NCBI GenBank assembly: GCA_001303695.1
Contig: LJUC01000006.1
Location: forward strand, 1-37,733
Direction of reading: 5' to 3'
DNA length: 37,733 nucleotides
DNA from: Phycisphaerae bacterium SM23_30
GTDB taxonomy: Bacteria > Planctomycetota > Phycisphaerae > Sedimentisphaerales > SM23-30
The notes beneath the pieces are model-generated. The model was given only the letters and a program-made list of their open reading frames with translations, was not told where the DNA came from and searched no databases. Positions 8,169 to 32,887 of this stretch are shown here, one piece after another. How positions within the stretch are numbered: the first letter of the stretch is position 1; each line of letters begins with the position of its first letter. Position numbers and translations under genes: made by a program.

Positions 8169-11100
8169 TTACTGCTGGAGTTGGGATCGCCTGGAATCGT
8201 AAGTTTTGATGATGAATAATGCCAAAGCCAGGCAAATATAGGGCAGTAAATAGCTTATAAGATAGTCCTGGGGATACGATCCGCACGACATGGAACAGCC
8301 GCCACCGCCCCCCACTTGAGGAGAAGAGGATAGTGGAGTCTGATTTAAGATGACAAATTGTGAAAAATGGGTGGTCTTAAAGCGAATTACATGTAAATCA
8401 GATGACAAAACAATCTGTTCGATATCAGACAATCCCGATTGGCTGTATGAGTCAATTGCCGGGTTGTACCAATATATGGTGCCAAGCTGATCGTTATCGG
8501 TTATCAGATAAGGTATCGTGATGGTAATGGGGACGGCAAATTCGAGGGGGCTGCTGGGGCCAAACTCATATGCAGCAAGTGGTGTGTTGGCAAAGGGGGG
8601 CGGGGCAGGATTTTTAATACCGTGAACCGATAACATAACATCGGACCATAAGGCATGAGGGGGCACTTCTATAGAGATGTCATTCAGGTCGGAGATATTT
8701 TCGGGAAGGGGACCGATCCGCCCTCCCTGAACGGCGGAGATAGGGCCGGCAATTATAACTGGATCAAGGATGGCAGTCAGCCCGGCATACTTGATAGATT
8801 CATCCGGGTCTGAGCCGTCAACCCACAAAATATATGGATTTTCATCATCATCGAGACCGATTACCGGCTGCTTTTGGGAACCGGTGTCATTGGTAACCAA
8901 GATGTTAACCGGGGAATCGGAGTTAATTTGAGCAAAATAGATATCGCTGTCGGTTCCATCAGCAGCGTTACGTTCATCCTGCCAACAGGCGAATATTTTC
9001 AGGTCTTGTCCGGAGCCGGCAAGTAATAAAGAAGGGGCAAACTGATGGGCATGAGAACAGTCATCAATAATGTTAACGCCTTCAACAGGTTCGGCCGGCA
9101 AGCCTTGGAAGATTCCTGCGTAAAAGATGTCCTTGTCGCCGCTAGCTTCATCGACCCAGAGCAGGTGCAGTTGGGAGATGTAAGGTTGTACGACTAGAAC
9201 GGGCGAAGATTGAGCGCCGATTTTATTTACTATCGGGACATTGGTCCACGGGCCTAGATTGGAGGCGGCGCCATAGATATCTTTGGACTCATTTCTGGAG
9301 TCGGACCAGACGACGTAAACGGTATTCTGGGCATCAATCGATATTGATGGTTCGATCTGGTCGTGATGATCGGAAGTCAGGGCGTATTCAGCGATCTCAG
9401 TAAAAAAGTTTGACGAGTACGCCAGATAGATATCCTGATTATTTTGGCGGTCATCCTGCCAGGCGATATAGATCCCATTTTGTTGATCGAGGGCGATGGC
9501 GGGTCGGCTCTGATGGTAGATGGAGGGGGTGATTATTTTTTCGGAGAAGATTATACCATCAATGGAGAAGGCCAGATAGATGTCCCAGTTGCCGTTTCGG
9601 TTGTCCTGCCAGGTAAGATAAATGGCGCCGTTGCTGTCGCAGGCTAAACGGGGATAACATTGATCGGCGGCATTGTCGGTAATCTTTATAGGCGGCGTAA
9701 GAGTATTAAAGGTCTGAGCCGATAATTTACTGAGATAAATATCTCGGGATCCATCAGGGCCGGCATCCCAAGCAGCCCAGACAATGTTGTGGTTTTGATC
9801 TATGACAGTAACGGGATGGTTTTTGGCAGAAGGCACCGTATCGACATCGACGCGGTAGGCAGTTCCGAAGGAGTACATTTCAGTCATAAAGGCATATTCA
9901 TAAGGGGGCATGGAATTACCCGACAAATCCTGAGCGCTGACGATGACGTCGATTTTTTGATTGTAGCCGAACATCGAGGCAGGTTGATATATAAACAAAT
10001 AATTATTATGATTGCCCATCCGCCGACAGGCGCCGGATTCGGAAATATAGTTATCAATATCACCATTATAAACCAGTTCATCCTCAATGCGGATTGTAAC
10101 CGAATCAGGATCTACACCCGCGCCGTAATCACTGATTTCGAGGGTGACCAAGCTGTTAAGAGGTATTTGCAGGTCATTCTTTTTGGGGATACAGTTGGTT
10201 ATAATCGGCGGATCAACATCACCGGCAAGGTGATTTACCTGGATGAGTATGGTTTGGCGTGCGTCGGTCTGGCCGTCGTTAGCAATGAAGGTTACCAGAT
10301 AAACGCCGCGGTTTTCCATGACGGGCGACCAGGAAAAGGTATCGCCAACAAAGGAAGCGAGAGGGGGCAGGTTTTCGGCAGTATAGGTTAATTCATCATC
10401 ATCGGGGTCCTCGGCATGTACAGCAAAAATCAGATGAGAGTCAACGTTGACGGTTTTATCATCGAGGGGATCAAAGACAGGTGCACGGTTTATATTATTT
10501 ACGACGATAGTGGCAGTTTGGGAGACCTGGTACTGGCCATCGTCGGCAGTAAAGACGACCGAATAGCTGCCGGCGGTATCATAACCCGGCTGCCAATAAA
10601 ATAATCCACCTTCAAAATAAGCGCCCGGGGGGAGGGCATCTGCGGAGTAACTGACAGGGTCGTTATCAGGATCGACGGCGTTGACGGTAAAGTGAAGCGG
10701 GATATTTTCATCAATAGAAAAGTCCTCAAAAGGGGGCAGCACCGGCGGTTGATTGGGTTGGTTAGGATCGGGATTCGCCGAGGCGTCGTTCACGGTGATA
10801 GTCACCATTTCATAGTCACGGTAAACGCCGTCGCTCACGACAAAAATGACGTAATAACGACCTGGGAATTCGGCAGTCCATTGGAAGCGATCATCGGTGA
10901 ATGCGGCATTACCAGGAAGATGCATGGCGTAATAGGAGAGGGTATCGCCGTCGTCATCGGCGGCTTCCATTGTGATATCAATAAAATCGCCCTGAGTTAC
11001 GGTTTTGTCATCGATAGGCTGCAAAGATGGTCGATGCATACCCTCGGCGACAGGGGGGTTATCGTCCAGCAATCCTGCTCGAAATGGTGAAGCATACGGG

Positions 11101-12920
11101 GAAAAACCATCGATAATTTCAATTTTTACATCTTCAAAATAATTATCCTGGTACTTGGTACAATCTAACCGGAAGACCATGCCGTGGGGGTTTGCCGGCA
11201 GGATTATGTTTACAGGTGCTATTCGATCCACAATCACATCGGCCAGGATATTACCGTAATCATCTTGTAAGACAGCCTGATAGCTTTCGCTACCTCCATC
11301 ACCTTTGAGTTCGATGGTACCGGCGGTAACGCCCGGGGGCATCCAGAGATAAAGAGGACAATCGGAACCGCACACATTTATTATACTTTTGCCATTGATC
11401 GCATAGGGCTGGGTGGCTCCCTCGAGTTTAAGGATATTGCGATCCGAATTCAAAACGATCGCATATATATCCGTTTCCGGTACGACGAAATTGAGCGTAT
11501 GCGTCTGCCCGTACATGATGGTGACATCCTGAAATATCTGGCCGAGGCTGTCTGAAATAATCAGGCGGGCAGCATCATTGTAGTCGGCCAATTGGATACA
11601 GGAAAGATTTAGCTGAATAGTATTTCCCTTTTCCGCGTACACAATAAGTTGATTGCGGTTACGGAAGTTCACAGATGTTTCTGCAGCAGCGGTATAGGGC
11701 GGCGGCATAACTCGTATGGTGGGGCTGTTGTCAATGGAATCCGGATGGATGACAGGGACCACGGTAAATTCATTAGGGATCAAAGGGCTTTGATAATCGG
11801 AATTGTTTGCCAAATTGTCCAACTCAAGGTTGGCTTGATTTATAGCATTCCAATAATCCTCCGGTTCACCTGACAAAGGGGCGTACCAGGGTTTAATGTA
11901 AGTTTCGAAAGTGTAGATGAAGTAACCGTCCATATCTTTGGCACAGTAATAGAGGTGTTCAGTAAGTCGAGGGGGGGGATATTTACTCTGCCAGAGGCCC
12001 ATAATATGCTTAACGGAGGTTCCAAAAGAGGCGAAATTCTCCAGGACTTCCTGCATAATAGGGGAGAAATAACCGTCGGTATAGGTACCGGCGTGCAAAA
12101 TAAAGAGGGGATTTTGCTCAGTGGCAAAGCCATCGACCAATCCCTGAGCGAACGGATATAGGTCGGTGACATCGTAACAACCGATAATAAGATCCGGATT
12201 GATTTGATGAATCTGTTCTCGGGCGTTTTGGGCCAATTGCTTTATCCCCTGGCGAAAATGTGCGTTATATTGATCCATAAGCCCGTTTTGTTCCAGGAAA
12301 CTTTCACGTTCGAATAAAGGAATCTGGCTGGACACACCGGTCTGCCGACAATATGCGTCGAAGCAATGGTCGCACATACAGGGCTTTTTGTAGACGGCGT
12401 CCAGTTCACTGGCATACAATTCATTATCGAGGATTATTCCCGCCATAGGATAGGTTAGAGACATCTGGGCTAGTTCACAGAAACAATTGGTCACAACCTG
12501 TTGGAATACCTGCGGTTCCATGGGGCAGGGCGCATTAGCGTTTCCGGTATAACTATGTTCAAATTGAACCCAAGTAGATTCGCTGTTGCCCCAAAAATCA
12601 ATTGTCGGCATAAATACTATGTCATGTTGTTGGCAGAGATTGGCCCAGTTCTGGATGTAAGAGATTGTTTGGGGAGCGAAAGTTTCTTGGGGGCGTTGAA
12701 TTTTCACTGCTGCCAGGTTCATACCCACCTCGGACATTTTGGGAACCAATTCCAAGCAAAACAGCGATAGGTATCCGGCACGAATCTTATGGCTCTCAAG
12801 ATATTCCCGAGCGTTGATATTATCATCAGCCAAAGTGTTACCGGCCCCCGGCCAGACGATTGCCAACAATCCCATTATGAGGCGGCATAATGTAATTTTG
12901 AATTTCCCTTTATCATACAT
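8169..12920 (-). CDS. Large secreted multidomain protein: putative TIM-barrel enzyme domain, three He_PIG/cadherin-like repeats, Ig-like region, seven-repeat propeller, ZU5-like region, C-terminal GGGGGC-TM-basic tail
   Basis: 1583 aa with a hydrophobic signal-like N-terminus (LCRLIMGLLAIVWPGAGNTLA). N-terminal KIRAGYL...LDNELY...CMCDHCF. Three repeats of the type DDKTV...DPDDDELTY...LPP..F..DTFSW...DGQ...ILIQVN. Seven W-x-D...DIY repeats. The C-terminus ends GGGGGCSMSCGSYP-(TM)-IIKTYDSRRSQLQQ. Confidence 0.9.
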   Translation of the reverse strand: MYDKGKFKITLCRLIMGLLAIVWPGAGNTLADDNINAREYLESHKIRAGYLSLFCLELVPKMSEVGMNLAAVKIQRPQETFAPQTISYIQNWANLCQQHDIVFMPTIDFWGNSESTWVQFEHSYTGNANAPCPMEPQVFQQVVTNCFCELAQMSLTYPMAGIILDNELYASELDAVYKKPCMCDHCFDAYCRQTGVSSQIPLFERESFLEQNGLMDQYNAHFRQGIKQLAQNAREQIHQINPDLIIGCYDVTDLYPFAQGLVDGFATEQNPLFILHAGTYTDGYFSPIMQEVLENFASFGTSVKHIMGLWQSKYPPPRLTEHLYYCAKDMDGYFIYTFETYIKPWYAPLSGEPEDYWNAINQANLELDNLANNSDYQSPLIPNEFTVVPVIHPDSIDNSPTIRVMPPPYTAAAETSVNFRNRNQLIVYAEKGNTIQLNLSCIQLADYNDAARLIISDSLGQIFQDVTIMYGQTHTLNFVVPETDIYAIVLNSDRNILKLEGATQPYAINGKSIINVCGSDCPLYLWMPPGVTAGTIELKGDGGSESYQAVLQDDYGNILADVIVDRIAPVNIILPANPHGMVFRLDCTKYQDNYFEDVKIEIIDGFSPYASPFRAGLLDDNPPVAEGMHRPSLQPIDDKTVTQGDFIDITMEAADDDGDTLSYYAMHLPGNAAFTDDRFQWTAEFPGRYYVIFVVSDGVYRDYEMVTITVNDASANPDPNQPNQPPVLPPFEDFSIDENIPLHFTVNAVDPDNDPVSYSADALPPGAYFEGGLFYWQPGYDTAGSYSVVFTADDGQYQVSQTATIVVNNINRAPVFDPLDDKTVNVDSHLIFAVHAEDPDDDELTYTAENLPPLASFVGDTFSWSPVMENRGVYLVTFIANDGQTDARQTILIQVNHLAGDVDPPIITNCIPKKNDLQIPLNSLVTLEISDYGAGVDPDSVTIRIEDELVYNGDIDNYISESGACRRMGNHNNYLFIYQPASMFGYNQKIDVIVSAQDLSGNSMPPYEYAFMTEMYSFGTAYRVDVDTVPSAKNHPVTVIDQNHNIVWAAWDAGPDGSRDIYLSKLSAQTFNTLTPPIKITDNAADQCYPRLACDSNGAIYLTWQDNRNGNWDIYLAFSIDGIIFSEKIITPSIYHQSRPAIALDQQNGIYIAWQDDRQNNQDIYLAYSSNFFTEIAEYALTSDHHDQIEPSISIDAQNTVYVVWSDSRNESKDIYGAASNLGPWTNVPIVNKIGAQSSPVLVVQPYISQLHLLWVDEASGDKDIFYAGIFQGLPAEPVEGVNIIDDCSHAHQFAPSLLLAGSGQDLKIFACWQDERNAADGTDSDIYFAQINSDSPVNILVTNDTGSQKQPVIGLDDDENPYILWVDGSDPDESIKYAGLTAILDPVIIAGPISAVQGGRIGPLPENISDLNDISIEVPPHALWSDVMLSVHGIKNPAPPPFANTPLAAYEFGPSSPLEFAVPITITIPYLITDNDQLGTIYWYNPAIDSYSQSGLSDIEQIVLSSDLHVIRFKTTHFSQFVILNQTPLSSSPQVGGGGGCSMSCGSYPQDYLISYLLPYICLALALFIIKTYDSRRSQLQQ
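8785..9830 (-). repeat. Seven tandem W-x-D...D-I-Y repeats in the 1583-aa protein, consistent with a seven-bladed beta-propeller (approximate bounds)
   Basis: AAWDAGPDGSRDIYLSK, WQDNRNGNWDIYLAF, WQDDRQNNQDIYLAY, WSDSRNESKDIYGAA, WVDEASGDKDIFYAG, WQDERNAADGTDSDIYFAQ, WVDGSDPDESIKYAG. Confidence 0.7.
10220..11040 (-). repeat. Three tandem ~85-aa He_PIG/cadherin-like Ig repeats in the 1583-aa protein (approximate bounds)
   Basis: LQPIDDKTVTQGD...FQWTAEFPGRYYVIFVVSDGVYRDYEMVTITVND; FEDFSIDEN...FYWQPGYDTAGSYSVVFTADDGQYQVSQTATIVVNN; FDPLDDKTVNVDS...FSWSPVMENRGVYLVTFIANDGQTDARQTILIQVNH. Confidence 0.75.
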
Positions 12921-13384: not shown

Positions 13385-14374
13385 TTACCGCCAATTTTGA
13401 ATCGCGTCGAGGCTTTTTTGACAGGGTGTGATGATCTCATCCTGTTTCAGCATATAAATCCCTGCCCGGCATGAATTGATGTCGGGGGTGAGGGTTTCGT
13501 TTTTACACAGGGAGATAAGTTTGGCGGGGAATTTGGCGCCGGCAAAGTGCGAACAGGGATACCCCCCGCCGAAACGGGGATTCATTTCGAGTAGTTTGGG
13601 AACGCCGTTATCCATTATCACATCAACATCCATGGGGCCGAACAATCGAATTTTTTGGGCGATTTCCAGTCCCAGTTTTATCAACCGGGGATTATCCGTA
13701 CTGACGGCCTGATCCGTTTCGCCGGCGCGCATAGCGAGTTTTAATTTGCAAAATACACTAATAGGTCGATAATTCTTGTCCGAGAAGATATCATATCCGT
13801 ATTCTTGTCCCGGGAGATATTTTTGTATCATAGGATTAGGGCAGTTTTCAAAGGCATATTGCAATTGTTTTTCATTCTTGCAGTAAGTGATATCGGCGGA
13901 AGCGCTGCCATTACGCGGTTTGACCACCAAAGGCCAGGAAAGGCGCCCCTCGGCCAATAATTTTTTTGCCGGGGGTATAGTCGTCACGGTTTCGGGAACC
14001 GGGATATCGTTTTCTTTACCAAACTGATATGTTAAATATTTGTCATATGTTATTTGTACGGTTTGGGGCGGGGAAACAACCGCCATTATGCCCAAGTCAT
14101 CGAATTGTTGATGACGGGCAGCGAGAACTTCCAATTCCGGGTCAATCAAAGGCACCACCATATCAATACGATTCTTCTGGCATAACCGAATCAGCTGATC
14201 GATATAGTGCGGTTCGGTTACTTTAGGCATCAAAGCGCGGTTGTCACAGTATTGAAAAGCCGGGGCGTGTTTATTAGAGTCGGCGCCCCACACTTCGTCA
14301 CCGGGATCAAGGGCTTCTTTGAAATATTTTACCAGATACCCACGCCGTCCCACGCTCGACAACAATATTCTCAT
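13385..14374 (-). CDS. ATP-grasp superfamily carboxylate-amine ligase (CarB/PylC-like fold)
   Basis: MRILLSSVGRRGYLVKYFKEAL (Rossmann-like N-terminus), DKYLTYQFGKENDIPVPET, WPLVVKPRNGSASADI, MIQKYLPGQEYGYDIF, MDVDVIMDNGVPKLLEMNPRFGGGYP. Confidence 0.88.
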   Translation of the reverse strand: MRILLSSVGRRGYLVKYFKEALDPGDEVWGADSNKHAPAFQYCDNRALMPKVTEPHYIDQLIRLCQKNRIDMVVPLIDPELEVLAARHQQFDDLGIMAVVSPPQTVQITYDKYLTYQFGKENDIPVPETVTTIPPAKKLLAEGRLSWPLVVKPRNGSASADITYCKNEKQLQYAFENCPNPMIQKYLPGQEYGYDIFSDKNYRPISVFCKLKLAMRAGETDQAVSTDNPRLIKLGLEIAQKIRLFGPMDVDVIMDNGVPKLLEMNPRFGGGYPCSHFAGAKFPAKLISLCKNETLTPDINSCRAGIYMLKQDEIITPCQKSLDAIQNWR

Positions 14375-14423
14375 TTAACGAGTCTCCTATGAACGACATC
14401 CAGGTATGGTTGTTTACCTGTTC

Positions 14424-14651
14424 TCAGGCAATGCCTTTTTCATCGAGAAATTTCTTTATCGCGCGTACGTCCGTTAGTTCAATGGCCTCGGCCGGAGTGA
14501 TCGAGACGTGAAATTGTCGCTGCAGGGCCATGATTAAGCCGACATGGGCCATGGAATCCCAACCGGCGACATTATATATGGACATCGAATCATCGATATG
14601 ATCCAGGTCGAATGATTCCTTAAATATTTTTTCGAGCTTTTGTTCTATTTG
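14424..14651 (-). CDS. Acyl carrier protein-like ORF, absent from the ORF track; start codon unresolved
   Basis: Minus-strand frame between stops: QIEQKLEKIFKESFDLDHIDDSMSIYNVAGWDSMAHVGLIMALQRQFHVSITPAEAIELTDVRAIKKFLDEKGIA*. It has the phosphopantetheine-type site GWDSMAHV. An in-frame TAA lies at 14652-14654, with no ATG/GTG/TTG before the first predicted helix. Confidence 0.8.
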   Translation of the reverse strand, partial: QIEQKLEKIFKESFDLDHIDDSMSIYNVAGWDSMAHVGLIMALQRQFHVSITPAEAIELTDVRAIKKFLDEKGIA

Positions 14652-14669
14652 TTATGATCCTATATATAT

Positions 14670-16457
14670 TTATTCATCTATTATTTTCAGATAGGCAAAA
14701 GTATGCGGATGAAATTTAGCGATCTCATATTTCCAAGATGTTTGGTTAGGAAGGTTTTCGTCTAGATTAAAGTACATTCGTTCCCAGAAATCGGCGACCA
14801 ATCTGTTTTTCGCGGTGGGTAAATATTCGGCGAGGATCGAGGTAATATTTTGTTTGGCGGCATCCTGCAGAATTCGATGCACCAAGGCGTCTTCGGCGCC
14901 GCGGCCGATGACACGACAGCTTATGAGAAAGGTGTCTATACGCCGGCAATTTTCTACTTGGTTGACCAAGGCTACGCCGACGGTGCCGTTATCGCCGAAT
15001 TTGTCCTTCAATCCCAGTACATATACGTACCAATCTTCAGCTTCGAGCATGGCTTTTATGTCCGCCTCGCAATATCGACGGGTAGTAAGATTGAATTGAT
15101 TGGTTCGCTGGGTCAATTGAGCTACTCGTTTAATATCCGACGATCGCGCCGAACGTACGGTGGCGACCATTTCCAAAGATTTTAAAAATTCTTCCAATGA
15201 TCCAACGGAGGTTTTAAGTTGTTCTCTCTGGCGTTGGGCGGCGTATATTTGACCGCGTTGGCGATCTTCAGGGGTAAGAAAGGTCTTGGCAAATTCATTG
15301 GTTTCCCGCAGGGTACGGGCATACAACGCCGGGTTTTCAGGCATTTCTATCGTGCAGATTTCCGGCAACATTTGACGCATCATAGCCCGCTCGGCAGGAT
15401 TGTCGTCCAGGAAGACGAAACTGTCGGTGGCGATGTTTAGTGTTTGGGCTATAAGGCGCATGTTAGATGGTTTATCCTGCCAATTAATTTCTAAGGCGGC
15501 AAAATGTTTTTCCCGTAAAACCATATGCGGATGTTTATGAAGCACTTCTATCACATCGTGGTGATTATTTTTACTGTTAAGGGCCAGAACGACACCCTGA
15601 TGATATAATTCGAGTATGGCATGTTGAAAATCGACGAATTCTCGACCGGGCGAATCGGGTCCCAACTGGATGTCGTCGAAGCCATCTTCGCCGATGATCC
15701 CTCCCCAGAGGGTATTGTCGCAATCCAGCACCAGACACTTGCGGACCATTCCCTTGAGGGCTTTAATATGGGAAGTGATTTTTTGGGCCAACAGGGGCAT
15801 AAAAGTTTCACTGAAAGGGTTTCGCGCCATATGCAGCATTTGGGGCGAAAGGGACCGGCGATAGCCGTGATAGGCGGCCAAGGAATCTAAATCAAAGATT
15901 TGAATATGCGGATCTTCGGCGAATTTTTCCACCAGCCGGCGATTGACACGACGGCCTAGAGCGGTTTTTTCATCGGGGATAATGTGCAGCGGCCAACCGG
16001 GAGAGGCAATCAAAGTATTTATAATCAGTAAGGAAGGAGTTTGTTTTTTAAAAGTGTTCGCCAGAGATGTTATCTGTCTAATTACCTCGTCTGCTATTTG
16101 GTTGGTGTTGGTCAGATTAGTTTTGGCGGCTAGGCTCTCCCATTCCATAAACAGGAAAGTAATTTCCGGTTCAAATGCATATAAGCTACTGTGGGGATTG
16201 AGAACTTCCTGTTGAAACTGTCCGTAACCAGCCAGGTAAGAGTCGAGCCAAATTCCTTGAGAGGCGGCGGCGGTTAAGGCATAATCACCAATCGGCTCCA
16301 TGGTGAACGAGCTTAAAAAGGCCGCCTTCACCTTAAAGTCCGCCACAACCTCACCGCCCGCCAACGCCGCCTTGATCTTCTGCGCCGCCCGCCGGTAAGC
16401 TAGCCAACCGCCGCTTTGTTCTGCATGTTTAATGATATCCTTAATACTCATCTTCAT
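14670..16457 (-). CDS. FkbH-like HAD-IIIC family protein (putative glyceryl- or acyl-ACP-forming enzyme)
   Basis: KCLVLDCDNTLWGGIIGEDGFDDIQLG, LALNSKNNHHDVIEVLHKHPHMVLREKHFAALEINWQDKPSNMRLIAQTLNIATDSFVFLDDNPAERAMMRQMLP, plus the C-terminal region RVAQLTQRTNQFNLTTRRY...CRVIGRGAEDALV. Confidence 0.93.
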   Translation of the reverse strand: MKMSIKDIIKHAEQSGGWLAYRRAAQKIKAALAGGEVVADFKVKAAFLSSFTMEPIGDYALTAAASQGIWLDSYLAGYGQFQQEVLNPHSSLYAFEPEITFLFMEWESLAAKTNLTNTNQIADEVIRQITSLANTFKKQTPSLLIINTLIASPGWPLHIIPDEKTALGRRVNRRLVEKFAEDPHIQIFDLDSLAAYHGYRRSLSPQMLHMARNPFSETFMPLLAQKITSHIKALKGMVRKCLVLDCDNTLWGGIIGEDGFDDIQLGPDSPGREFVDFQHAILELYHQGVVLALNSKNNHHDVIEVLHKHPHMVLREKHFAALEINWQDKPSNMRLIAQTLNIATDSFVFLDDNPAERAMMRQMLPEICTIEMPENPALYARTLRETNEFAKTFLTPEDRQRGQIYAAQRQREQLKTSVGSLEEFLKSLEMVATVRSARSSDIKRVAQLTQRTNQFNLTTRRYCEADIKAMLEAEDWYVYVLGLKDKFGDNGTVGVALVNQVENCRRIDTFLISCRVIGRGAEDALVHRILQDAAKQNITSILAEYLPTAKNRLVADFWERMYFNLDENLPNQTSWKYEIAKFHPHTFAYLKIIDE

Positions 16458-17815: not shown

Positions 17816-18118
17816 AACTGTTGGAAGTAAAATGATCGGCGCTGTGGGATCCCATATGATGAGTCACTATGAACTCATCCACCATCGGCAGATAATTCAG
17901 CTTCACCTTAGCCTTATTTATCAAATCACCCGAAAAACACAAACGCCCTACCAAAAATGCTTCGCAAGGTTCATCATCTGCATGGGGAAGAAGATTTTTC
18001 AGCATGGCCGCTTATCCGCGGGGATTTGATCGGATAATTACTCCTGCAACTGTCGGGTAATATCTCACCATTCACTTTCGGCGGCAAATTGCATCGAGTA
18101 CATCATCTTACAATAAAA

Positions 18119-19303: not shown

Positions 19304-19414
19304 ATAATCATTACTAATATTTTTGTTGCAGATACATTTGGCTAGAGTAAGCAGAGGCGTAATATTGTATTTGAATGTAATATAACGGCCTCATATTTGC
19401 GCTAGATCGAAGCT

Positions 19415-20110: not shown

Positions 20111-20158
20111 GTTGAACCTCCAACCTAACTATCCTGATAGTAATACCAAAACATCATC

Positions 20159-21364
20159 CTACTCCACAAAACCTCGATCTATTGGATTTGTAGATCGATA
20201 TTTTATAAATCTAAGAAAATATGAAAGAAACTCAGAAAAAGTCGCACCAATATCATCATAGAACAGATCGTCATATACATCTTCATTGCCAGGCAACAGG
20301 AGCTTCATTGCCTCAAGAAGATTGAGCTTGGATAGGGATTTTATGCTAATTATCATATCCCCCAAATACCATCGCGCCACAATTCCATCAGGGTAATCCT
20401 TATACATTGAACGTGCTGCGTTTATACCCTTTGTAGCCGCAATGTACGTCATTACCGGGAAATCTACGCCACATGCAACCGGTAGCGCAATACTGCCCCA
20501 TAAACGAGGATTAATCTCAATAAACCAAGGCTGTTTTTCTATTGGGTTCCATTTAAATTCGACCATTGCCAACCCATGCCAGTTAAGTTTATCTAAAAGC
20601 TTGTGCGCACAGTCTTCCATCACGCGATTGTGGGCTGATTCGCGTAATGTACTTGGACCTCCGGTACTAATTTTTTCCCTAAGCCTTCGGTGAGTAAAGG
20701 ATGCAATTCTATTACCATGCCAATATAAACAAGATACACCCCACCCTTCTCCTTTAACTCTCTTTTGAATTATGGGATAGTTTTGATGTTTTAAATTAAA
20801 TTGCCTTATTACTTTATCAAGCGTATCTATTATTAGTTCCTTGCCTTGAGCGTAAAATACGCCCTTAGCACTATTACTTCTGTGAAGTTTAATAACAACG
20901 GATTCCCCAATCTCGCTGATAATATTATCAATTTTACTTATATGTTTAAATGCTGCATATTTAGGAGTTGGTATTCCCCCTCTAGATGCAAATTCAATCG
21001 CGCGCATTTTATCATTTGCCAAAGATAAAATATTATAGCTAGGCAGAGGAATTTTTATATGTCTTGGTAGATGCTTTCTATATCTAGTGACTATCTGACC
21101 TTCATCGTGGCCCGGAAGATAAAAATGCACTTTCGATTTTCTTAATATTTTGTTCATATCTTCTATGAATTGCTCTGGATTACTACGCGGATCACAATGG
21201 ACATAACGCTCAGATATAAATCTTGAATTTTGCCCCATTCCGAATCTAGCGCTGTCGGCCGCGGCTACACGAAGACCATATCGGCTTAAACTTCGGATGG
21301 CTGTATAACTTGACCGACACCAACTGTATCCAACAAGAACATCATTTCTCATTTTTTTTCCCAA
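20159..21364 (-). CDS. ATP-grasp superfamily carboxylate-amine ligase, second copy type
   Basis: VLVGYSWCRSSYTAIRSLSRYGLRVAAAD, NDKMRAIEFASRGGIPTPKYAAF, VVIKLHRSNSAKGVFYAQG, PIIQKRVKGEGWGVSCLYW, GLAMVEFKWNPIEKQPWFIEINPRLWGSIALPVACGVDFP. Confidence 0.88.
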   Translation of the reverse strand: MGKKMRNDVLVGYSWCRSSYTAIRSLSRYGLRVAAADSARFGMGQNSRFISERYVHCDPRSNPEQFIEDMNKILRKSKVHFYLPGHDEGQIVTRYRKHLPRHIKIPLPSYNILSLANDKMRAIEFASRGGIPTPKYAAFKHISKIDNIISEIGESVVIKLHRSNSAKGVFYAQGKELIIDTLDKVIRQFNLKHQNYPIIQKRVKGEGWGVSCLYWHGNRIASFTHRRLREKISTGGPSTLRESAHNRVMEDCAHKLLDKLNWHGLAMVEFKWNPIEKQPWFIEINPRLWGSIALPVACGVDFPVMTYIAATKGINAARSMYKDYPDGIVARWYLGDMIISIKSLSKLNLLEAMKLLLPGNEDVYDDLFYDDIGATFSEFLSYFLRFIKYRSTNPIDRGFVE

Positions 21365-21578
21365 AGATCTTATATATAGGAAATCGCAAACAGGATTGTT
21401 TCAGAAAGTCATTATGCCGGGCCTTTTTTCCTTAGCAAGGCAAAAATGTGTCGGTGGAACCGCTGATAGTTACCGGAACCAGAAAATTTCGATCATAATA
21501 ATCTGAAAATAATTCTTCATATTTTCTTTTATGTTACTTTTTCGTAAGGCGGGAAATTCCTGCAATCTTGAAACGCCG

Positions 21579-22757
21579 CTAACGCTGGGTATAATTTCTT
21601 CCTGCAGATTTAAATTTCGACCACATTAATCTATAAAGCTTTGTGTATTGATTATGCATGGAAGCCAGCGAAAAGTGGGATTCCACAATTTTGCGATTCT
21701 CCTGGCCTATTTGCCTTAATTTTGCCTGATTTTTTCTAAAATTGTCGATTCGTTCCCTCCAGAGAGCTTTGTCAAGGGCAAGAATACCGACGCTTTCGCC
21801 ATATTGTCCAATCTCCTTGTGGGGGGGGATATCGGAAAGTATCGTGGGGCGAACCAGCGCCATAGCTTCCAGTACCGCAATAGGCAGGCCTTCCCGAATT
21901 GAACTTGATACAAAAAGATCTGAATTTAGGATTTCTCTATAAACGTCTTCACGTTCCAGCGAGCCCGTAAGTTTGACACGATGGTCTATTTGTAAATCGC
22001 AAGATAACTTTATTAAATCTTTCTCCAAATTACCGCTGCCTACGATCGTCAGGGTAATTTCATCAGGCAATTCAGTCATGAGTTTAATTAACCATTTCTG
22101 GTTTTTTGCGCCGACCAGACGCCCTACATTTATCAACTTGAATTCTTGCGTTGCCTTGCCTCCACAAGCCAATTTTGCTTGATTTCCCCTTCCATATAAA
22201 TTACAAATTATATCTACGCGATCCAAATCGACGCCGTTGGTTATAACGTGAACTGAACTGTTCCTTACGTGCCTGAGCCAATGAGGATAAGAATCGCACG
22301 CAGCCTGCCCCACATAATTAACATGATCAGACAAAAAGAAATTGGCCAACGATAAGATTTTGCTGGGCAAACGATAGTTTTTAAAGGAGCTGTGGATGGT
22401 GAAAAGAGACGGGGGCCTTTGCCGTGATATTGAGCAAAAGAGGTGGGTTAATAGAGCGGGTCTCAAATGACCAAAGTGAAATACAGAGGGGATATTTAGA
22501 AGCTGAATATCATGTATCACTGTTTTAAGTCGTTGACGCATCACAAAAGGGCTTCTTTGGCAATCAAGGATTCTTATATTTTTTAATAATTCAGGATCAC
22601 AGCAGCGTAATTGATTTTCAACAATGGGCGCATAAGAAACTAAAAAGTGTAGTTCCTCCGGAAAATGTCGGGCGCGAAACAGAACGAACTCATTAAATTC
22701 CATACTGGTGCTGCTGAGGCTGTGTGTTACCGTAATAACGGCTCTTTTATAGCTCAC
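21579..22757 (-). CDS. Glycosyltransferase family 4
   Basis: FKLINVGRLVGAKNQKWLIKLMTELPDEITLTIVGSGNLEKDLIKL, HRVKLTGSLEREDVYREILNSDLFVSSSIREGLPIAVLEAMALVRPTILSDIPPHKEIG. Confidence 0.92.
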   Translation of the reverse strand: MSYKRAVITVTHSLSSTSMEFNEFVLFRARHFPEELHFLVSYAPIVENQLRCCDPELLKNIRILDCQRSPFVMRQRLKTVIHDIQLLNIPSVFHFGHLRPALLTHLFCSISRQRPPSLFTIHSSFKNYRLPSKILSLANFFLSDHVNYVGQAACDSYPHWLRHVRNSSVHVITNGVDLDRVDIICNLYGRGNQAKLACGGKATQEFKLINVGRLVGAKNQKWLIKLMTELPDEITLTIVGSGNLEKDLIKLSCDLQIDHRVKLTGSLEREDVYREILNSDLFVSSSIREGLPIAVLEAMALVRPTILSDIPPHKEIGQYGESVGILALDKALWRERIDNFRKNQAKLRQIGQENRKIVESHFSLASMHNQYTKLYRLMWSKFKSAGRNYTQR

Positions 22758-22908
22758 TCAAACTCCTACCCTTTAAAGAGACGAAAGAAAATCCCGGGAA
22801 TTAAAAGTTGTTTTTGCTCTATTAAATTATCTCATCAGTATTATGCCATTCGCATCCCATATCTTTTACCCGTTAAACGATATAGTATGCTTTATGGCAA
22901 TATACGTT

Positions 22909-23973
22909 TTAATCGGGTAAGCGTATTATACTTATTTTCCCGCTGGGATGTAGATCGGAAATTGCCAACCAGCGCCCATCGGGAGAGAAGGCCACATTTG
23001 ATGCGATCTCGGAAGTGCGTATGGATTTGACAATATTTTGCCCCGATCCGCAATCCCACACGCCGCCCTTTCGAGTATTAGTTAAGGCGGCAACCATTTT
23101 ACCGTCGGGACTGACGGCCAAATCATAGAATTTTACGTCGCCGATAATACGAACAATATCCTCATCGGCAACAATCCGTTTTAATACCCGACCGTCATCC
23201 GTTTGTATTTTATATAGAATAAGATTATCATCCCCCGCGAAAAACCAACTCCCGTCCGGACCGAAAGCCGCCTTGTAAAGTTGCTGCGGGCCCGGGATGG
23301 TTATCTCCCACTTTATTTTCTTGGCCGCCATGTCAACCACCATGACCAAACCTTCTTTGTCCTGCTCGCCCAATAGCGCCGCCCATCGACCATCATCGGA
23401 TATAGCCCCGTGGTGCAGTTGAAAGTCGTCGACGTCTTTATCGATGGTTACAATTAGATCGGCTTGTACCTCATCAGGATCAATCTTTGTTAACTGATAA
23501 ATCGTTCGGGAAGGTCCAATTATCGAACTTCCCCCTAATAATACCGCCAGCACGCTTCGATCGCGATTGGCGGCGAGATGCTTAAGGTTGTTATCAGGAC
23601 CAAGTGGAATTTCCCGAATTATATGTTGGTCCCGGAGATGACTTACCACCAGGGAATTTTGGCCGGTCCGCCGGTGCGCCGCAACCCGTTCCGCATCCAA
23701 AACTACTGCTTCTAAGGTTGGAGTCATGCCTCTTTGAGGATCAATAGATAAATCATCCCAGTTCCATAGTAGGATTTTACGGTCTTTAAATATAGCCGCC
23801 AATAAGTTACCACAGGTGGAAAGGTCTAAAACTCCGACGCCCTTGGGGAGAGGCACCTCTATCATCCGATTCGAACTTTGCTCCACAATAACCATCAGAA
23901 CCATAATTACTACCATGACGGCTAAGAATAATTTAATCGGAGACCTCTTTTTTTGTCTCTGCGAAGTCGGCAT
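22909..23973 (-). CDS. Membrane-anchored WD40-like beta-propeller protein
   Basis: N-terminal basic stretch plus TM (KKRSPIKLFLAVMVVIMVLMVIVEQ), then repeats such as GNLLAAIFKDRKILLWNWDD, AAFGPDGSWFFAGDDNLILYKIQ, LAVSPDGKMVAALTNTRKGGVWD, VAFSPDGRWLAISDLHPSGKISIIRL. Confidence 0.8.
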   Translation of the reverse strand: MPTSQRQKKRSPIKLFLAVMVVIMVLMVIVEQSSNRMIEVPLPKGVGVLDLSTCGNLLAAIFKDRKILLWNWDDLSIDPQRGMTPTLEAVVLDAERVAAHRRTGQNSLVVSHLRDQHIIREIPLGPDNNLKHLAANRDRSVLAVLLGGSSIIGPSRTIYQLTKIDPDEVQADLIVTIDKDVDDFQLHHGAISDDGRWAALLGEQDKEGLVMVVDMAAKKIKWEITIPGPQQLYKAAFGPDGSWFFAGDDNLILYKIQTDDGRVLKRIVADEDIVRIIGDVKFYDLAVSPDGKMVAALTNTRKGGVWDCGSGQNIVKSIRTSEIASNVAFSPDGRWLAISDLHPSGKISIIRLPD

Positions 23974-24036
23974 ATAACCCTCTAGCCATAATTTTATATA
24001 CTCAGTTCAGAATCGATCACGAAAAATAATGATATT

Positions 24037-25155
24037 TTAGGGTGCGGATCGCAGATAAAATTCGTGTAGGAGTCGCGCGATTTTTATATCGTTGAAATGC
24101 TCCTGCACTCTTTTCAGACCGGCCGCCCCGAAATTTTTTCGCAAACTTTTATCTTTAATAAGATTTTCAATTTTTTCGGCCATTTTATCAATATCTCCCA
24201 AAGGCACCAAAAAACCTGTTTGCCCATCAACAACCAATTCCTGTGTACCTAAGACATCTGTAGCCACGACCGGTTTTTCTAAAGCCATGGCTTCCATGAG
24301 AGAACGCGGGATGCCTTCCTTCTCGGAACATAACACCACCATGTCACAGGCTTCAATAAGACCTAGTGCTCTGGTGCTGCGCCCTACCATATTCACTAAT
24401 CTCGACAAACCCATTTCTTGAACCTGTTTTTTCAATTGTTGCTCCTGGGGACCTGTTCCCGCTACCACACAGGCGATATCAATGCCTTTCGAAATAAGTT
24501 TACATGCTACTTTTAAGAAATCGTCAACCCGTTTTATTCTCTCCAGCCGGCTTAGTAATACAATTCTGAAGCCCTGCTCAGGATAATCTTTCTCTGCCTC
24601 GGATAATTGTAGTGCCGCTAATTTTTTTACAAAATCAATATCAACTCCGTTACCTTCATACGATACTTTATCTTTTGTACCGATAAGTTTAATGCATTCA
24701 GACATATCACGTTTATTTTGAGTGAATATATGGCTTCTAAACTTACAGGCTGTTTTTTCTAAAAAACTGTATGCTATATATGAAATTCTGTTTTGACCTT
24801 CGTAAAATGGAAGCCCGTGGTAGGTATGAAAAATAAACGGTACTCTCGCTATTTTTGCAGCTAGGGCGGAAATGAAACCTGCTTTAGCTGTGTGTGAGTG
24901 CACCATGTCAAATTTTTCTCTTTTTAATACCTTATATAACTCCCAGATGCTTTTTAGGTCTTTTATTGGATTTATACTTCTATCCATGTTAACCGCAATA
25001 TGTTTAGATGGGGGGGTGGCTGAGTAATCCTTGGTTTTGGGTGATGAAATAACCGTCAAATCAATATCGCCGCACCGATTTAGCTCCTTCAGTTTTGTGT
25101 ACAGTATGGAGGTGGTAGAACTGTAAACTGTTACTATATGGACAATTTTGATCAT
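24037..25155 (-). CDS. Glycosyltransferase family 4
   Basis: DMVHSHTAKAGFISALAAKIARVPFIFHTYHGLPF, FRIVLLSRLERIKRVDDFLKVACKL, MVGRSTRALGLIEACDMVVLCSEKEGIPRSLMEAMALEKPVVATDVLGTQELVVDGQTGFLVPLGD. Confidence 0.95.
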   Translation of the reverse strand: MIKIVHIVTVYSSTTSILYTKLKELNRCGDIDLTVISSPKTKDYSATPPSKHIAVNMDRSINPIKDLKSIWELYKVLKREKFDMVHSHTAKAGFISALAAKIARVPFIFHTYHGLPFYEGQNRISYIAYSFLEKTACKFRSHIFTQNKRDMSECIKLIGTKDKVSYEGNGVDIDFVKKLAALQLSEAEKDYPEQGFRIVLLSRLERIKRVDDFLKVACKLISKGIDIACVVAGTGPQEQQLKKQVQEMGLSRLVNMVGRSTRALGLIEACDMVVLCSEKEGIPRSLMEAMALEKPVVATDVLGTQELVVDGQTGFLVPLGDIDKMAEKIENLIKDKSLRKNFGAAGLKRVQEHFNDIKIARLLHEFYLRSAP

Positions 25156-25186
25156 TTATTATATTTTTCGCCGTGATAAGCCGTTC

Positions 25187-26167
25187 TCATTTCTGAGCCC
25201 CACGATATTGTTTTATCATCTCTCGATCAGGAATAATCCTGTCTGTTTTACGGCCCAGAAAATAGTTTGCCGAGGCAGCATCTATTCCGCCGGGTTTGTC
25301 TATCAAGAAATAATCAAAATATTTCAACCAGAAAGCAGTTAATCGCGCGAAGATCTTAATAAAGTTTCGAGATAACTTTGAACGTACAAAACTTAGTAAA
25401 AAGTAATTATAAGCCCAGGCTAATGCGCAACCTGGCCCCAGCACTGAACCGCTTTCAATTTCTTCAAACTTTCGGAACAAAAATCTATGTCCTAAATGGG
25501 TAAATCTGGTAAAATCGTATCGTCCTTCATGTACTTGCTGCATAAAAGGTGTGTCCGAGTATATGATACCGTTTTTTTTCAGAACGCGCCATATCTCTTC
25601 AACGCAGCGAAATGGATTAACTACATGTTCCAATACGGCCTGTATAATCACACCGTCGAAGGTTTGGTCCGCAAAGGGTATAACATGTGCGTCGCATACT
25701 AAACAATTACGATCATGAATTGTAATATCTGTATCAACAAAATATATGCTACTATCGTCCTGAATATTTTGGAGGCCCTCTCCTTTTTCTCTCCCGCAAC
25801 CTATAATAAGAACTTGGGGACGTTCTTTTTGTTGGTGCAAAATATCTGAAAATTTCGCATATATTTTTTCGGCTTTCAGATTTCGTCCCAACTGGGGCAA
25901 TATTTTTTTTGCCTTCTGCATGTATAATACTCGCTGAGATTTACGTAAAGATTTCCCTTTATTATTCTGTTGACCTATTATATCGTTTATGGAAAAAAGA
26001 CTGTCAGATTCGTTTATAAGAATACATACACCGTTGACAACAGGAAAAGCAACTCCGCATTGTTGATTACTACAGGTGAGACTATCAGATGACAATCGCA
26101 GTTTTGACATGCAACACGGACAACGCAATTTTTGTAAAAGTTCTGATTTTATTTTTAGCGTCTCCAT
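25187..26167 (-). CDS. SAM-dependent methyltransferase with an N-terminal Trm112-like zinc-ribbon
   Basis: LRCPCCMSKLRLSSDSLTCSNQQCGVAFPVVNGVCILI, VLIIGCGREKGEGLQNI, FDGVIIQAVLEHVVNPFRCVEEIWRVLKKNGIIYSDTPFMQQVHEGRYDFTRFTHLGHRFLF. Confidence 0.88.
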   Translation of the reverse strand: METLKIKSELLQKLRCPCCMSKLRLSSDSLTCSNQQCGVAFPVVNGVCILINESDSLFSINDIIGQQNNKGKSLRKSQRVLYMQKAKKILPQLGRNLKAEKIYAKFSDILHQQKERPQVLIIGCGREKGEGLQNIQDDSSIYFVDTDITIHDRNCLVCDAHVIPFADQTFDGVIIQAVLEHVVNPFRCVEEIWRVLKKNGIIYSDTPFMQQVHEGRYDFTRFTHLGHRFLFRKFEEIESGSVLGPGCALAWAYNYFLLSFVRSKLSRNFIKIFARLTAFWLKYFDYFLIDKPGGIDAASANYFLGRKTDRIIPDREMIKQYRGAQK

Positions 26168-26218
26168 AACCTGAATCCCTTATTTAATACGGTTACAACC
26201 GCCAATTTAACTTTATCA

Positions 26219-28177
26219 TTAATGAACATATCCAGGGATAGGCATTTGTCTCTCAATATCGCGAAGCAGGCTATCTTTGGATAGCGACATATATTTTCCC
26301 AGACCCGAGTCAACTTTTAACCGCACGTCTTCCAACACCGCGCCGGGTCTGGGTCGAAAAATTAATTCAATTATTTCCCCTTGTTGGTTTTTATGCAGCG
26401 CTAAGGTTATATTATGTCGGTGGAGTATATCATATTCACCCAGAATTGCCCCGCCTCCCTTTTTAAAAGTGGCGACAACAGATTCTCCCGGACCGTCAAC
26501 CTCTAGCCATAACCGGGCTTCCATGCTGCCCGCTGGTTTCCATAAGAACAGACTTTGCTTGGGTCCTAATAAACCGACTGTTTCGTTGACCACTATGCTG
26601 AACGGATGAGAATAGGATACGACTTTGGCGGCATTACCGCCTGGATTAAATGCCGTTGCATAAGCGCCCGTATAAGGCGCCGTGAATCGCAGTTCGGCGT
26701 TTTTTTGAAAAGTTACTAAAGAGTGTGCCAGTTGCTCACCTGAATAGTTACTAAGCACAACGATGGCAGATTGTACATTATTTTGGCCGTATTTACGCAT
26801 CGAAATCTTAAAGTTTATCTCTTCTCTTTGCCGGGCGATAAAAACCAAAGTAGTTTTTTGTCTAAAACTAAGGTCACTTATAATTTTCACACCCGGAACT
26901 AAAGATGTTTTCCCGACGTATTGCACCGACGTAATATTGATATTGGATATGTTGGGAACGGTAGAGGGCGGTAGAAAAGAGCGAATCCGAAGAGAACTTT
27001 TATAGTCTGGATATTTCTCCAGTTTGTCCAACTCATTGTTTGCCTCGCGAATGGCCTGCCAATATTGATTTTTATTAAAAGGCAGGACTTTATTCATATT
27101 CCGGGAAAGTGATTCGGTAGTGTAGATCCAATAACCAAATGAATCTTTAGCACAATAATAATATTGTTCCGCCAGGTTCTCCGGAGGAAATTTATCCTGC
27201 CAGATGCCAACAACCAAGCGAGCCTTAACACCCAAGACGGACCATTCGTCTTGCAGGGACCGAATAAAAGAACTATAACCGGTGGAATATGTTTGCTCGG
27301 TAAAGACCAACAGAGGATCCGCCCCTGTCGCCAAACCTTTGAGAATCCCCCTGTAATAAGGACGCGCGATATTATGATGAAAAATCCCTATTTTAAAATC
27401 CGGCGCGACGGATGCTAACTGCTTTCGAGTTTCCGCCGTCAGCATCTCGATGGTTTTTTCGGTGAAAACACGGTACGAGTTAATCTTTTTGGTCCGGATT
27501 AAGTAATCCTGACGCAGCTCCGGTCGCAAAGGCAACTCCAAAAATTCATTTTCTGCAAATAGATTAAAACAATGATCACATAAACAATATTCGGGGAAAT
27601 TAGTCAAGTTGGCACCATACATTTCCGGATCAATCACGACGCCCTCAATAGCCGCGGCGTGAGACAAACGGGCCACTTCCAAAATCCTTTTATGCACCGC
27701 CAGCTGATAGGTTTCTTCATCCAGCGGACAGGGTGTCTGATTATAGTGTAAGCCGCCGAAATAAAGAGTGTGTTTCGGTTTTATCCATTCATTTTCATGC
27801 CTTCCCCAAAGATTAATGACCGGCATAAATTTAATCCCCGCTTCTTGACATTTTTTCGCCCATCTCAGAAAAAGTTCCTTTTCTTCCGACAGCAGGGGGT
27901 AATGTACATAGTTGAATTTCACCAGAGCCAGATTCATCCCGTTTTGAGCCAACTTCTCCGGAAGATCTGTCCCGCTGATTCCCAGATAACCTGCTCGTAT
28001 CTTATCTTGGTGTCGATTCAGGCCGGCAAGTTGAGACTCAGAAAATTCTCCGGCTATGGATTCATTATCGCAATTCATGCCGGCCGGGGGCTTCTTTTCG
28101 CAACCCCCACCGGTAGCCAGAAAGGACATCAGAATAAATAAAATATTAAGAGTCCGCATTATTCCTCGACTTCTCAA
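26219..28177 (-). CDS. Predicted lipoprotein; putative TIM-barrel enzyme plus beta-sandwich; paralog of the N-terminal part of the 8169..12920 protein
   Basis: Signal peptide with lipobox-like FLATGGGCEKKP. DKIRAGYL, GMNLALVK, FMPVINLWG, VVIDPEMY, CLCDHCF, VVGIWQDKFPPENLAEQYYYCAKDSFGYWIYTTE, YWQAIREANNELDKLEKYPDYKSSL. Confidence 0.85.
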   Translation of the reverse strand: MRSRGIMRTLNILFILMSFLATGGGCEKKPPAGMNCDNESIAGEFSESQLAGLNRHQDKIRAGYLGISGTDLPEKLAQNGMNLALVKFNYVHYPLLSEEKELFLRWAKKCQEAGIKFMPVINLWGRHENEWIKPKHTLYFGGLHYNQTPCPLDEETYQLAVHKRILEVARLSHAAAIEGVVIDPEMYGANLTNFPEYCLCDHCFNLFAENEFLELPLRPELRQDYLIRTKKINSYRVFTEKTIEMLTAETRKQLASVAPDFKIGIFHHNIARPYYRGILKGLATGADPLLVFTEQTYSTGYSSFIRSLQDEWSVLGVKARLVVGIWQDKFPPENLAEQYYYCAKDSFGYWIYTTESLSRNMNKVLPFNKNQYWQAIREANNELDKLEKYPDYKSSLRIRSFLPPSTVPNISNINITSVQYVGKTSLVPGVKIISDLSFRQKTTLVFIARQREEINFKISMRKYGQNNVQSAIVVLSNYSGEQLAHSLVTFQKNAELRFTAPYTGAYATAFNPGGNAAKVVSYSHPFSIVVNETVGLLGPKQSLFLWKPAGSMEARLWLEVDGPGESVVATFKKGGGAILGEYDILHRHNITLALHKNQQGEIIELIFRPRPGAVLEDVRLKVDSGLGKYMSLSKDSLLRDIERQMPIPGYVH

Positions 28178-28217
28178 AGCTCCCGCTCAATATCTGGAAG
28201 TTCACCCTCATCGTGCT

Positions 28218-29378: not shown

Positions 29379-29485
29379 TGGTTGTTTTGGCTAAGCGATG
29401 ATACACAGTAGAGCCTTTACCGTACTTGGTGGCGTCCATTCAGATAGCCATTGTATCCAGAGGTATTATTTGCTTACAAGATACA

Positions 29486-32793: not shown

Positions 32794-32887
32794 CCAGGAA
32801 CTCCTGTCGTATTATTCTGCGAGTAACTTATTGGGTGTATTTCAAGATCCATTTCTAATAAATAAATATATTCGGAACCGACCTGCA

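Follow-up and report, generated by a model that had tools for sequence, protein, structure and literature searches.

Two exported proteins of a polysaccharide-synthesis locus

The window, a stretch of 37,733 nucleotides of contig LJUC01000006.1 from Phycisphaerae bacterium SM23_30, encodes two related exported proteins, here called P1583 and lip652, together with a polysaccharide-synthesis locus (Table 1). The products of this locus include glycosyltransferases, WecA-like and priming sugar transferases, a flippase, an FdtA isomerase and a DegT aminotransferase, along with acyltransferases, methyltransferases, and ATP-grasp and FkbH proteins. P1583 is organized, from its N-terminus, as a signal sequence, a glycoside hydrolase (GH)-like barrel, a β-sandwich pair, Ig-like repeats, a β-propeller and a C-terminal hydrophobic anchor. 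In the genome of L012 a propeller similar to that of P1583, the sole match there, is encoded by a gene of its own close to the barrel gene. The C-terminus of P1583 was also considered as a JDVT-CTERM anchor and rejected, with 9.2 bits against a cut-off of 27. The listed open reading frame of lip652 opens with TTG, and taking the Met at codon 7 as the start yields a normal-looking signal sequence. The label of lipoprotein originally given to this protein is doubtful, and that status is not established, because the GGG-C residues ahead of and including the Cys do not match the standard lipobox.

Table 1. Features of the two genes and their surroundings, in window positions
Feature	Position	Strand	Basis
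P1583, 1583-aa secreted modular protein	8169..12920	-	ORF; Pfam He_PIG/Big_9/Cadherin_4
P1583 TIM-barrel domain, aa 45-372	11805..12788	-	AlphaFold2 (model mec610ab475be) and Foldseek GH-barrel matches
P1583 D165-N-E167-L-Y169, C-terminal end of strand 4, putative catalytic carboxylates	12414..12428	-	Conservation
P1583 C132 ('PCP'), putative zinc ligand	12525..12527	-	29/34 relatives; aligned with GH42 HYCP/RHYC Cys
P1583 C181-x-C183-x2-C186, putative zinc ligands	12363..12380	-	28/35 each; aligned with GH42 CxCxxC
P1583 β-sandwich pair, aa 415-620	11061..11678	-	BLASTP to lip652; module also in other planctomycetes
P1583 Ig/cadherin-like repeats	10206..11003	-	He_PIG 3.6e-19, Big_9 2e-16
P1583 β-propeller-like region	8766..9803	-	Match to L012_13471_14919 (28% identity, E 2.8e-11); BNR_4 weak
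P1583 GGGGGC, hydrophobic stretch and RR tail, possible sorting/anchoring signal	8172..8318	-	Read in sequence
lip652, 652-aa exported protein (barrel and β-sandwich pair)	26219..28177	-	ORF; AlphaFold2 model m7f769c9280aa
lip652 TIM-barrel domain, aa 59-386	27020..28003	-	AlphaFold2
lip652 D183-P-E185-M-Y187 motif	27617..27631	-	Sequence, model, conservation
lip652 C150 ('PCP'), putative zinc ligand	27728..27730	-	Sequence, conservation
lip652 C198-x-C200-x2-C203	27569..27586	-	Sequence, conservation
lip652 β-sandwich pair, aa 430-640	26258..26890	-	Strands at model residues 398-601
Gene for a membrane-anchored, WD40-like propeller that recurs close to the barrel gene	22909..23973	-	Context comparison
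Polysaccharide-synthesis locus surrounding both genes	13385..37731	-	Pfam/NCBIfam

The original prediction held that the N-terminal ~600 aa of P1583 and most of lip652 are related along their full length, and BLASTP bears this out, with 28% identity and 46% positives over 619 aa (E 7e-84), spanning residues ~24-620 of P1583 and ~30-640 of lip652. As judged from sequence comparison, this similarity is far above chance. Every shared block that had been quoted was found in both proteins, namely KIRAGYL, GMNLAxVK, FMPxIxxWG, PCP, [IL]D[NP]E[LM]Y, C[ML]CDHCF, GxWQxKxPPxxLxExxYYCAKD and a block in the downstream β-sandwich. The homologous stretch is made up of two modules, the barrel and the β-sandwich pair, each of which is also found separately in other genomes. 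A whole-genome search recovered P1583 and lip652 as the only copies in the host genome, which is 78.5% complete. For relatives in other genomes, a strict pattern scan of genome contigs gave just two loci, and whole-genome profile searches were therefore adopted. A recent tandem duplication as the origin of the pair is unsupported, as lip652 joins a sequence from another family (L086, 48% identity) before it joins P1583. In the same tree, the five sequences from exopolysaccharide (EPS) loci form a single clade (98/95).

Fold and distant relationships of the barrel

The expectation of a TIM barrel was matched by the AlphaFold2 models, which confidently predict a (β/α)8 barrel in both proteins: that of P1583 has eight alternating strands and helices (pLDDT 91.9, pTM 0.90), and that of lip652 was obtained from residues 40-652 (pLDDT 88.3). 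Two β-sandwiches are positioned C-terminal to each barrel. When the barrel-only model was compared with the PDB using Foldseek, all 50 matches listed were carbohydrate enzymes (GH20, GHL10/Cwp19, GH164, GH5, GH35 and others), at modest TM-scores of ~0.5. A further Foldseek comparison matched the Pseudomonas aeruginosa glycosyl hydrolase 4zn2, which we take to be PslG. Among viral proteins, the Foldseek matches were confined to generic barrels of GH-like type and to other TIM barrels, and a scan of viral contigs found no relatives.

Neither Pfam nor NCBIfam assigns the barrel to a family, and single-sequence searches of the PDB likewise yielded nothing usable; the claim that no known GH family could be assigned thus stands in these three resources, and a match to a non-carbohydrate family, sought in the same resources, was found for neither protein. 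A profile built from 35 relatives and compared with PDB sequences recovered GH42 enzymes (E 3.8e-4 and 1.2e-3) and Cwp19 (E 6.6e-4), with the Cys ligands and the acid/base region in register. Profile-profile comparison with hhalign gave 97.3% for GHL10 (E 1.9e-11, strands 1-5) and 94.7% for GH42 (strands 1-4), while the negative controls GH18 and GH20 scored 5.9% and 1.0%. On the latter values, the kinship with GH18 or GH20 that had been suggested by the DxE motif and the Foldseek matches to GH20 was rejected. The register of the DxE motif shifts by one residue between the GHL10 (D-D-Y) and GH42 (N-E) alignments. Going by the Pfam, NCBIfam and PDB searches, P1583 and lip652 are most likely members of a single uncatalogued, phylum-wide GH-like family.

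Conserved acids and the four-cysteine site

D165 and E167 are the only near-invariant acids among the 35 relatives. They belong to the strand-4 D-x-E-x-Y motif, in which D is kept in 32, E in 34 and Y in 33 of 35 sequences. Other retained residues are an Arg on β1 (30/33), a Tyr or Phe on β6 (31/34) and a Trp or Phe on β8 (33/33). At the strand-7 position of the GH42 nucleophile there is no conserved acid, and Gly308 occupies it in 32/35. The strand-4 Asp is replaced by Asn in L053, a close relative from an EPS locus, and by Glu in two other relatives; in L069 the motif is disrupted (ELGDGF). The residue ahead of the putative acid/base Glu is Asn only in P1583 and L061, and is otherwise variable. 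Hence, the acidic pair that had been pointed out is indeed conserved at the end of strand 4, but it represents only half of the normal retaining dyad, as the nucleophile that GH42 has on strand 7 is missing; with Gly in its place, the family is therefore not canonical GH42.

The idea that a metal stabilizes the barrel has gained strength from the identification of the 'PCP' Cys as a candidate fourth ligand, from the match to the GH42 ligands, and from the joint loss of the four residues: the 'PCP' Cys is missing in five relatives, and in 5/5 of these the other three are gone as well. These sequence patterns suggest that the four cysteines constitute a structural metal site, which probably binds zinc.

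Genomic context and domain fusions

The barrel gene is present in 9/161 genomes of the host order, where 9/10 of its loci are polysaccharide-synthesis loci and the tenth contains GH26/GH16/GH43 genes. The other gene content of these EPS loci varies. The WD40-like propeller gene lies on the same contig, ~10 kb or less from the barrel gene, in 5/6 genomes with both. The proposed co-location with glycan genes thus holds within the host order, but outside it most relatives do not lie in polysaccharide loci; for this reason, the EPS of the encoding locus cannot be the substrate of the entire family. Two relatives, L051 and L019, adjoin genes of catabolic type (GH26/GH16/GH43, LacI). In other proteins the barrel is fused to an agarase/YXIM-type galactose-binding-like domain or to LamG, and the sandwich module occurs C-terminal to polygalacturonase-like β-helices in other planctomycetes. 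In L011, L012 and L052 a helix at the N-terminus, together with a linker rich in Ser, ties the protein to the membrane.

Proposed function and alternatives

We infer, with confidence slightly on the favourable side, that P1583 and lip652 are GH-like barrels, kin to GHL10 and GH42, that cut the EPS of their own locus, an inference that extends to catalysis, substrate and role alike. The exported barrels would cleave glycosidic bonds in the exopolysaccharide of the surrounding locus, as PslG, PelA and PgaB do in theirs, and would control how long the polymer is, its release or its attachment to the surface. In the strand-4 D-x-E, the invariant Glu would act as the acid/base. Because the strand-7 carboxylate is absent, the second half-reaction would have to be served either by activated water or by the neighbouring Asp, which might stabilize an intermediate that is substrate-assisted or of the 1,6-anhydro type, along the lines suggested for GHL10/PgaB-like enzymes. 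In a more far-reaching form, which we advance tentatively and would not quite call an even prospect, these proteins typify a new GH family widespread in Phycisphaerae, a GH42-type zinc-stabilized barrel with a strand-4 D-x-E and minus the strand-7 nucleophile, which in one order became a dedicated EPS processor.

The missing canonical nucleophile also means that some or all members might be non-catalytic, serving as glycan-binding or scaffolding barrels that keep the polymer bound to the surface or to the export machinery. The conserved Gly on strand 7, the binding modules accompanying the barrel and the lack of the strand-4 Asp in the EPS-locus relative L053 are in keeping with such a role; yet the retention of E in 34/35 and D in 32/35, in a family with identities falling to 16%, is a pattern like that of a catalytic site, and we consider this explanation unlikely. 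Moreover, according to PMC5765458 and PMC6016235, the GHL10 protein Cwp19 cleaves glycan strands despite having Gly at the same strand-7 position.

Alternatively, the two enzymes might have a different glycan as their substrate, either one resembling peptidoglycan or a foreign polysaccharide, and be encoded in an EPS locus by happenstance. The nearest profile is that of GHL10, and its member Cwp19, the gene of which likewise lies in a locus for a cell-surface polymer, has peptidoglycan as its target; the catabolic-type neighbours of L051 and L019 point in the same direction. However, the recurrence of the barrel gene within EPS loci of differing content, and its presence in so few genomes of the host order, unlike a housekeeping wall enzyme, make this improbable. 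Polymer modification without cleavage, such as transglycosylation joining EPS to the cell surface or another chain, would suit the export of the proteins, the membrane linkage of several relatives and the missing nucleophile, but is very improbable given that the related families, to our knowledge, hydrolyse or form anhydro-sugars.

The surface polysaccharides of planctomycetes are poorly understood, and a search of the literature on planctomycete EPS synthesis and EPS hydrolases found nothing on these loci. A locus-encoded family with conserved residues that can be mutated offers a handle on the identity and processing of the polymer. If catalytic, the EPS-cleaving barrels proposed here would be a further GH barrel, after GHL10 and GH153, working without the standard carboxylate pair, and a source of specific depolymerases.

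Comparison with known systems

The GH164 β-mannosidase Bs164 and GH35 are neighbours in fold (TM 0.5-0.54), with ~12% identity and no profile match. The GH42 β-galactosidases (PF02449; 9ta3, 6lvw, 3tts) share the (β/α)8 barrel, the profile similarity of strands 1-4, the acid/base Glu, which aligns with E167/E185, and four cysteines in matching order, the zinc ligands of Gal42 being Cys113/153/155/158 (PMC8573354); the Cys4 zinc cluster is present in many, not all, GH42 enzymes. They differ in that the Asn of their Asn-Glu pair is not conserved here, the strand-7 Met-Glu nucleophile is absent, the alignment ends after the Cys cluster, and PF02449 falls below the cut-off, with only one member reaching E 0.02-0.03.

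GHL10 (PF02638; Clostridioides difficile Cwp19, 5oq2/5oq3) is the best profile match, with a Foldseek TM of 0.52, although PF02638 is likewise below the cut-off (best E 0.18-0.19, one member) and strand 4 bears D-D-Y (D195-D196-Y197 in Cwp19) rather than D-x-E-x-Y. The accessible part of PMC5765458 describes no Cys4 site for Cwp19; it does report Gly328 replacing the strand-7 Glu, the counterpart of Gly308 here, along with a strand-6 aromatic residue, a surface location and a gene within a surface-polymer locus, all of which have parallels in the present family.

PslG, PelA (GH166) and PgaB (GH153) were absent from the matches of the PDB sequence searches, in which no sequence similarity to them was found, but offer a functional likeness, each being an exported TIM-barrel hydrolase encoded in a biosynthetic locus (PMC5933820, PMC9894940). 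GH genes are common in EPS operons, where they shape polymer size (PMC9894940, PMC5933820).

Two homologous exported proteins of the window

The modular protein P1583 (1583 residues, secreted) and the exported protein lip652 (652 residues) are both encoded on the minus strand. The original prediction had regarded them as paralogs sharing a putative TIM barrel, and BLASTP confirmed the relationship, aligning residues 24–620 of P1583 with residues 30–640 of lip652 (28% identity, E 7e-84). A search of the host genome (4.0 Mb in 295 contigs; completeness 78.5%) yielded no third copy. On the tree, both proteins belong to one clade (98/95) with L053, L084 and L086, the five being EPS-locus sequences with a barrel and a pair of β-sandwiches of the window type. 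Within it, the partner of lip652 is L086, from a different family, and not P1583; this argues against a recent tandem duplication, and on the sequence phylogeny the window genes are best taken as old paralogs or separate arrivals. In L086, close to the start of the contig, a tyrosine-recombinase-like C-terminus takes the place of the 5' end of the barrel gene; this probably reflects either a chimeric assembly or a true integration breakpoint.

The description of lip652 as a lipoprotein is doubtful: its signal sequence is plausible if translation starts at the seventh codon, but the GGG-C preceding the Cys misfits the usual lipobox, canonical examples of which occur in the relatives L051 (LAGC) and L053 (LISC). 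P1583 also has a propeller and Ig-like repeats. In L012 a comparable propeller, the sole such match in that genome, is encoded by a separate gene near the barrel gene, a hint that propeller and barrel function together. The C-terminal tail of P1583 is possibly an undescribed sorting signal.

Features of the window and of related loci
Feature	Coordinates	Strand	Remarks
P1583	8169-12920	minus	barrel, residues 45-372
P1583 C-terminal tail	8172-8318	minus	GGGGGC, hydrophobic helix and RR tail; resembles JDVT-CTERM, below model cut-off
EPS-type locus	13.4 to 37.7 kb		sugar-polymer gene content
WD40-like propeller gene	22909-23973	minus	membrane-anchored
lip652	26219-28177	minus	barrel and β-sandwich pair
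700-residue β-helix protein	29486-31588	minus	secreted; Beta_helix, Pect-lyase_RHGA_epim
FdtA isomerase, DegT aminotransferase, hexapeptide acyltransferase	35625-37731	minus	genes in a row
Transposase-like ORF	1966-2871	plus	between biotin ligase and two-component system
L086 barrel gene	L086:340-1830		5' end replaced
L019 protein	L019:3782-6808		two tandem barrels, two agarase/YXIM-type galactose-binding-like domains; near LacI-type regulator

Fold, higher-order relationships and the four-Cys site

The predicted barrel was recovered for both proteins by AlphaFold2. Residues 40–652 of lip652 (alignment of 25 relatives) were modeled at a mean pLDDT of 88 as an eight-fold β/α barrel followed by two β-sandwiches, and the P1583 barrel alone (35 relatives) reached pLDDT 91.9 and pTM 0.90. 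Every one of the 50 PDB neighbors listed for the barrel model is a carbohydrate enzyme (GH20, Cwp19/GHL10, GH164, GH5, GH35 and others), at TM-scores of ~0.5, which indicate superfamily rather than family. The domain is almost certainly a TIM barrel of the glycoside hydrolase kind, and very probably acts on carbohydrate.

No Pfam or NCBIfam model spans the barrel, in keeping with the earlier failure to assign a known GH family. A profile of 35 barrels searched against PDB sequences matched the GH42 β-galactosidases 9ta3 (E 3.8e-4), 6lvw (1.2e-3) and 3tts (0.03), and the Clostridioides difficile GHL10 protein Cwp19 (6.6e-4). In hhalign comparisons with planctomycete sequence sets, where E-values refer to single comparisons, the nearest profiles were GHL10 (97.3%, E 1.9e-11, strands 1–5) and GH42 (94.7%, E 5.7e-8, strands 1–4), against 5.9% and 1.0% for the negative controls GH18 and GH20. 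The barrel family is real, uncatalogued in these databases, and within a known superfamily.

In GH42, the first Cys ligand, the acid/base NE-Y and the CxCxxC align with the 'PCP' Cys, DxE-x-Y and CxCxxC of the barrel family; the GH42 zinc is bound by four Cys (113, 153, 155 and 158 in Gal42; PMC8573354). The equivalent four are conserved in 28–29 of 34–35 barrel sequences. The seven sequences without CxCxxC form two separate groups on the tree, and include all five that lack the 'PCP' Cys, C132 (hypergeometric 7.5e-5, kinship ignored). This joint loss supports a single putative four-Cys metal site and, with the GH42 alignment, backs the earlier idea of a metal-stabilised barrel. As members without the site retain the D-x-E, the putative metal probably has a structural and not a catalytic role, which is also what has been reported for GH42.

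Distribution and domain architectures

When whole genomes of the class Phycisphaerae were searched at E <= 0.001, 27 out of 397 proved to contain relatives; within the order, relatives were recovered in 9 of 161 genomes. The barrel occurs without the sandwich in L011, L012, L051 and L052, and the sandwich without the barrel in six other planctomycete loci (L013–L018). Five of them place it on the C-terminal side of a β-helix-like region, of the pectate-lyase/polygalacturonase kind by Pfam in L013 and recognized by sequence resemblance in the others; the remaining one, L018, is an incomplete ORF. The sandwich, which has no Pfam entry, may be an unnamed carbohydrate-binding module. Galactose-binding-like domains are attached to the tandem barrels of the MAG-derived L019 protein, a likely catabolic member, and a LamG domain to the L056 barrel. 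These associations point to carbohydrate-active proteins.

Genomic context

The EPS-type locus of the window encodes priming and WecA-like sugar transferases, glycosyltransferases, hexapeptide and GNAT acyltransferases, methyltransferases, a flippase, an FdtA isomerase, a DegT aminotransferase, and FkbH and ATP-grasp proteins. By reference to the known pathway, the adjacency of the FdtA, aminotransferase and hexapeptide acyltransferase genes suggests that the polymer contains a 3-acetamido-3,6-dideoxyhexose. The β-helix protein is a candidate for another enzyme or surface protein for this polymer. The transposase-like ORF, resembling Mutator/IS256 by eye, apparently lies outside the locus.

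The expected co-location with glycan genes held within the order, where nine of ten barrel-gene loci are EPS-type (the window, L053, L084, L085, L086, L012, L011, L052 and L078, the last on a short contig). Their neighbors, some identified by Pfam or BLAST and the rest from reading sequences, include Wzx/Wzy-like proteins, MBOAT, polysaccharide deacetylase, glycosyltransferases and nucleotide-sugar enzymes. A less likely alternative is that the barrel is an enzyme for another glycan: in the tenth locus, L051, GH26+GH16 and GH43 genes adjoin the barrel gene. Outside the order, most relatives lie in unrelated neighborhoods, the exceptions being L057 and L060, beside glycosyltransferases.

The WD40-like protein has clear full-length homologs in ~37 of the 161 genomes. 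Six genomes have both its gene and the barrel gene, and in five of them the two share a contig and lie within ~10 kb of each other (probability of order 1e-10 under random placement). In the loci read (L084, L087 and L088), the WD40-like gene adjoins priming sugar transferases. It looks like a conserved EPS-locus component.

Putative active site and proposed function

Only two acids are near-invariant among the 35 sequences: D165 (32/35) and E167 (34/35) of P1583, equivalent to D183 and E185 of lip652. Both sit where strand 4 ends, with a Tyr following (33/35). Conservation extends to an Arg on strand 1 (30/33), a Tyr/Phe on strand 6 (31/34) and a Trp/Phe on strand 8 (33/33). Where GH42 and clan GH-A have their nucleophile, on strand 7, there is a conserved Gly (32/35), with no conserved acid nearby. 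Loss of this canonical nucleophile rules out assigning the family to GH42, and would fit a non-catalytic binding barrel, a less likely alternative. The report on Cwp19 (PMC5765458) likewise describes Gly328, conserved in GHL10, in place of the catalytic Glu, with a strand-4 Asp as the main candidate. Cwp19 is nevertheless a lytic transglycosylase that cleaves glycan strands (PMC6016235), so a missing canonical nucleophile need not mean missing activity. A transglycosylase is a further, unlikely alternative for the barrel. Alignments differ by one residue over which family position matches the GH42/GHL10 catalytic residue.

We consider it probable that the barrel cuts carbohydrate. In the favored reading, P1583 and lip652 would be exported glycan-cutting enzymes for the polymer of their own locus, with E167/E185 as acid/base and the neighboring Asp assisting through a substrate-assisted or anhydro-type route; for this whole chain, including the substrate, we lean only slightly in favor. 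The family occupies a biologically sensible place, and what is new about it is its standing as a separate GH-like group whose active site is altered. Operon-encoded hydrolases of this kind are common, and alter polymer size and attachment, as with PelA (PMC9894940) and with PgaB and PslG (PMC5933820).
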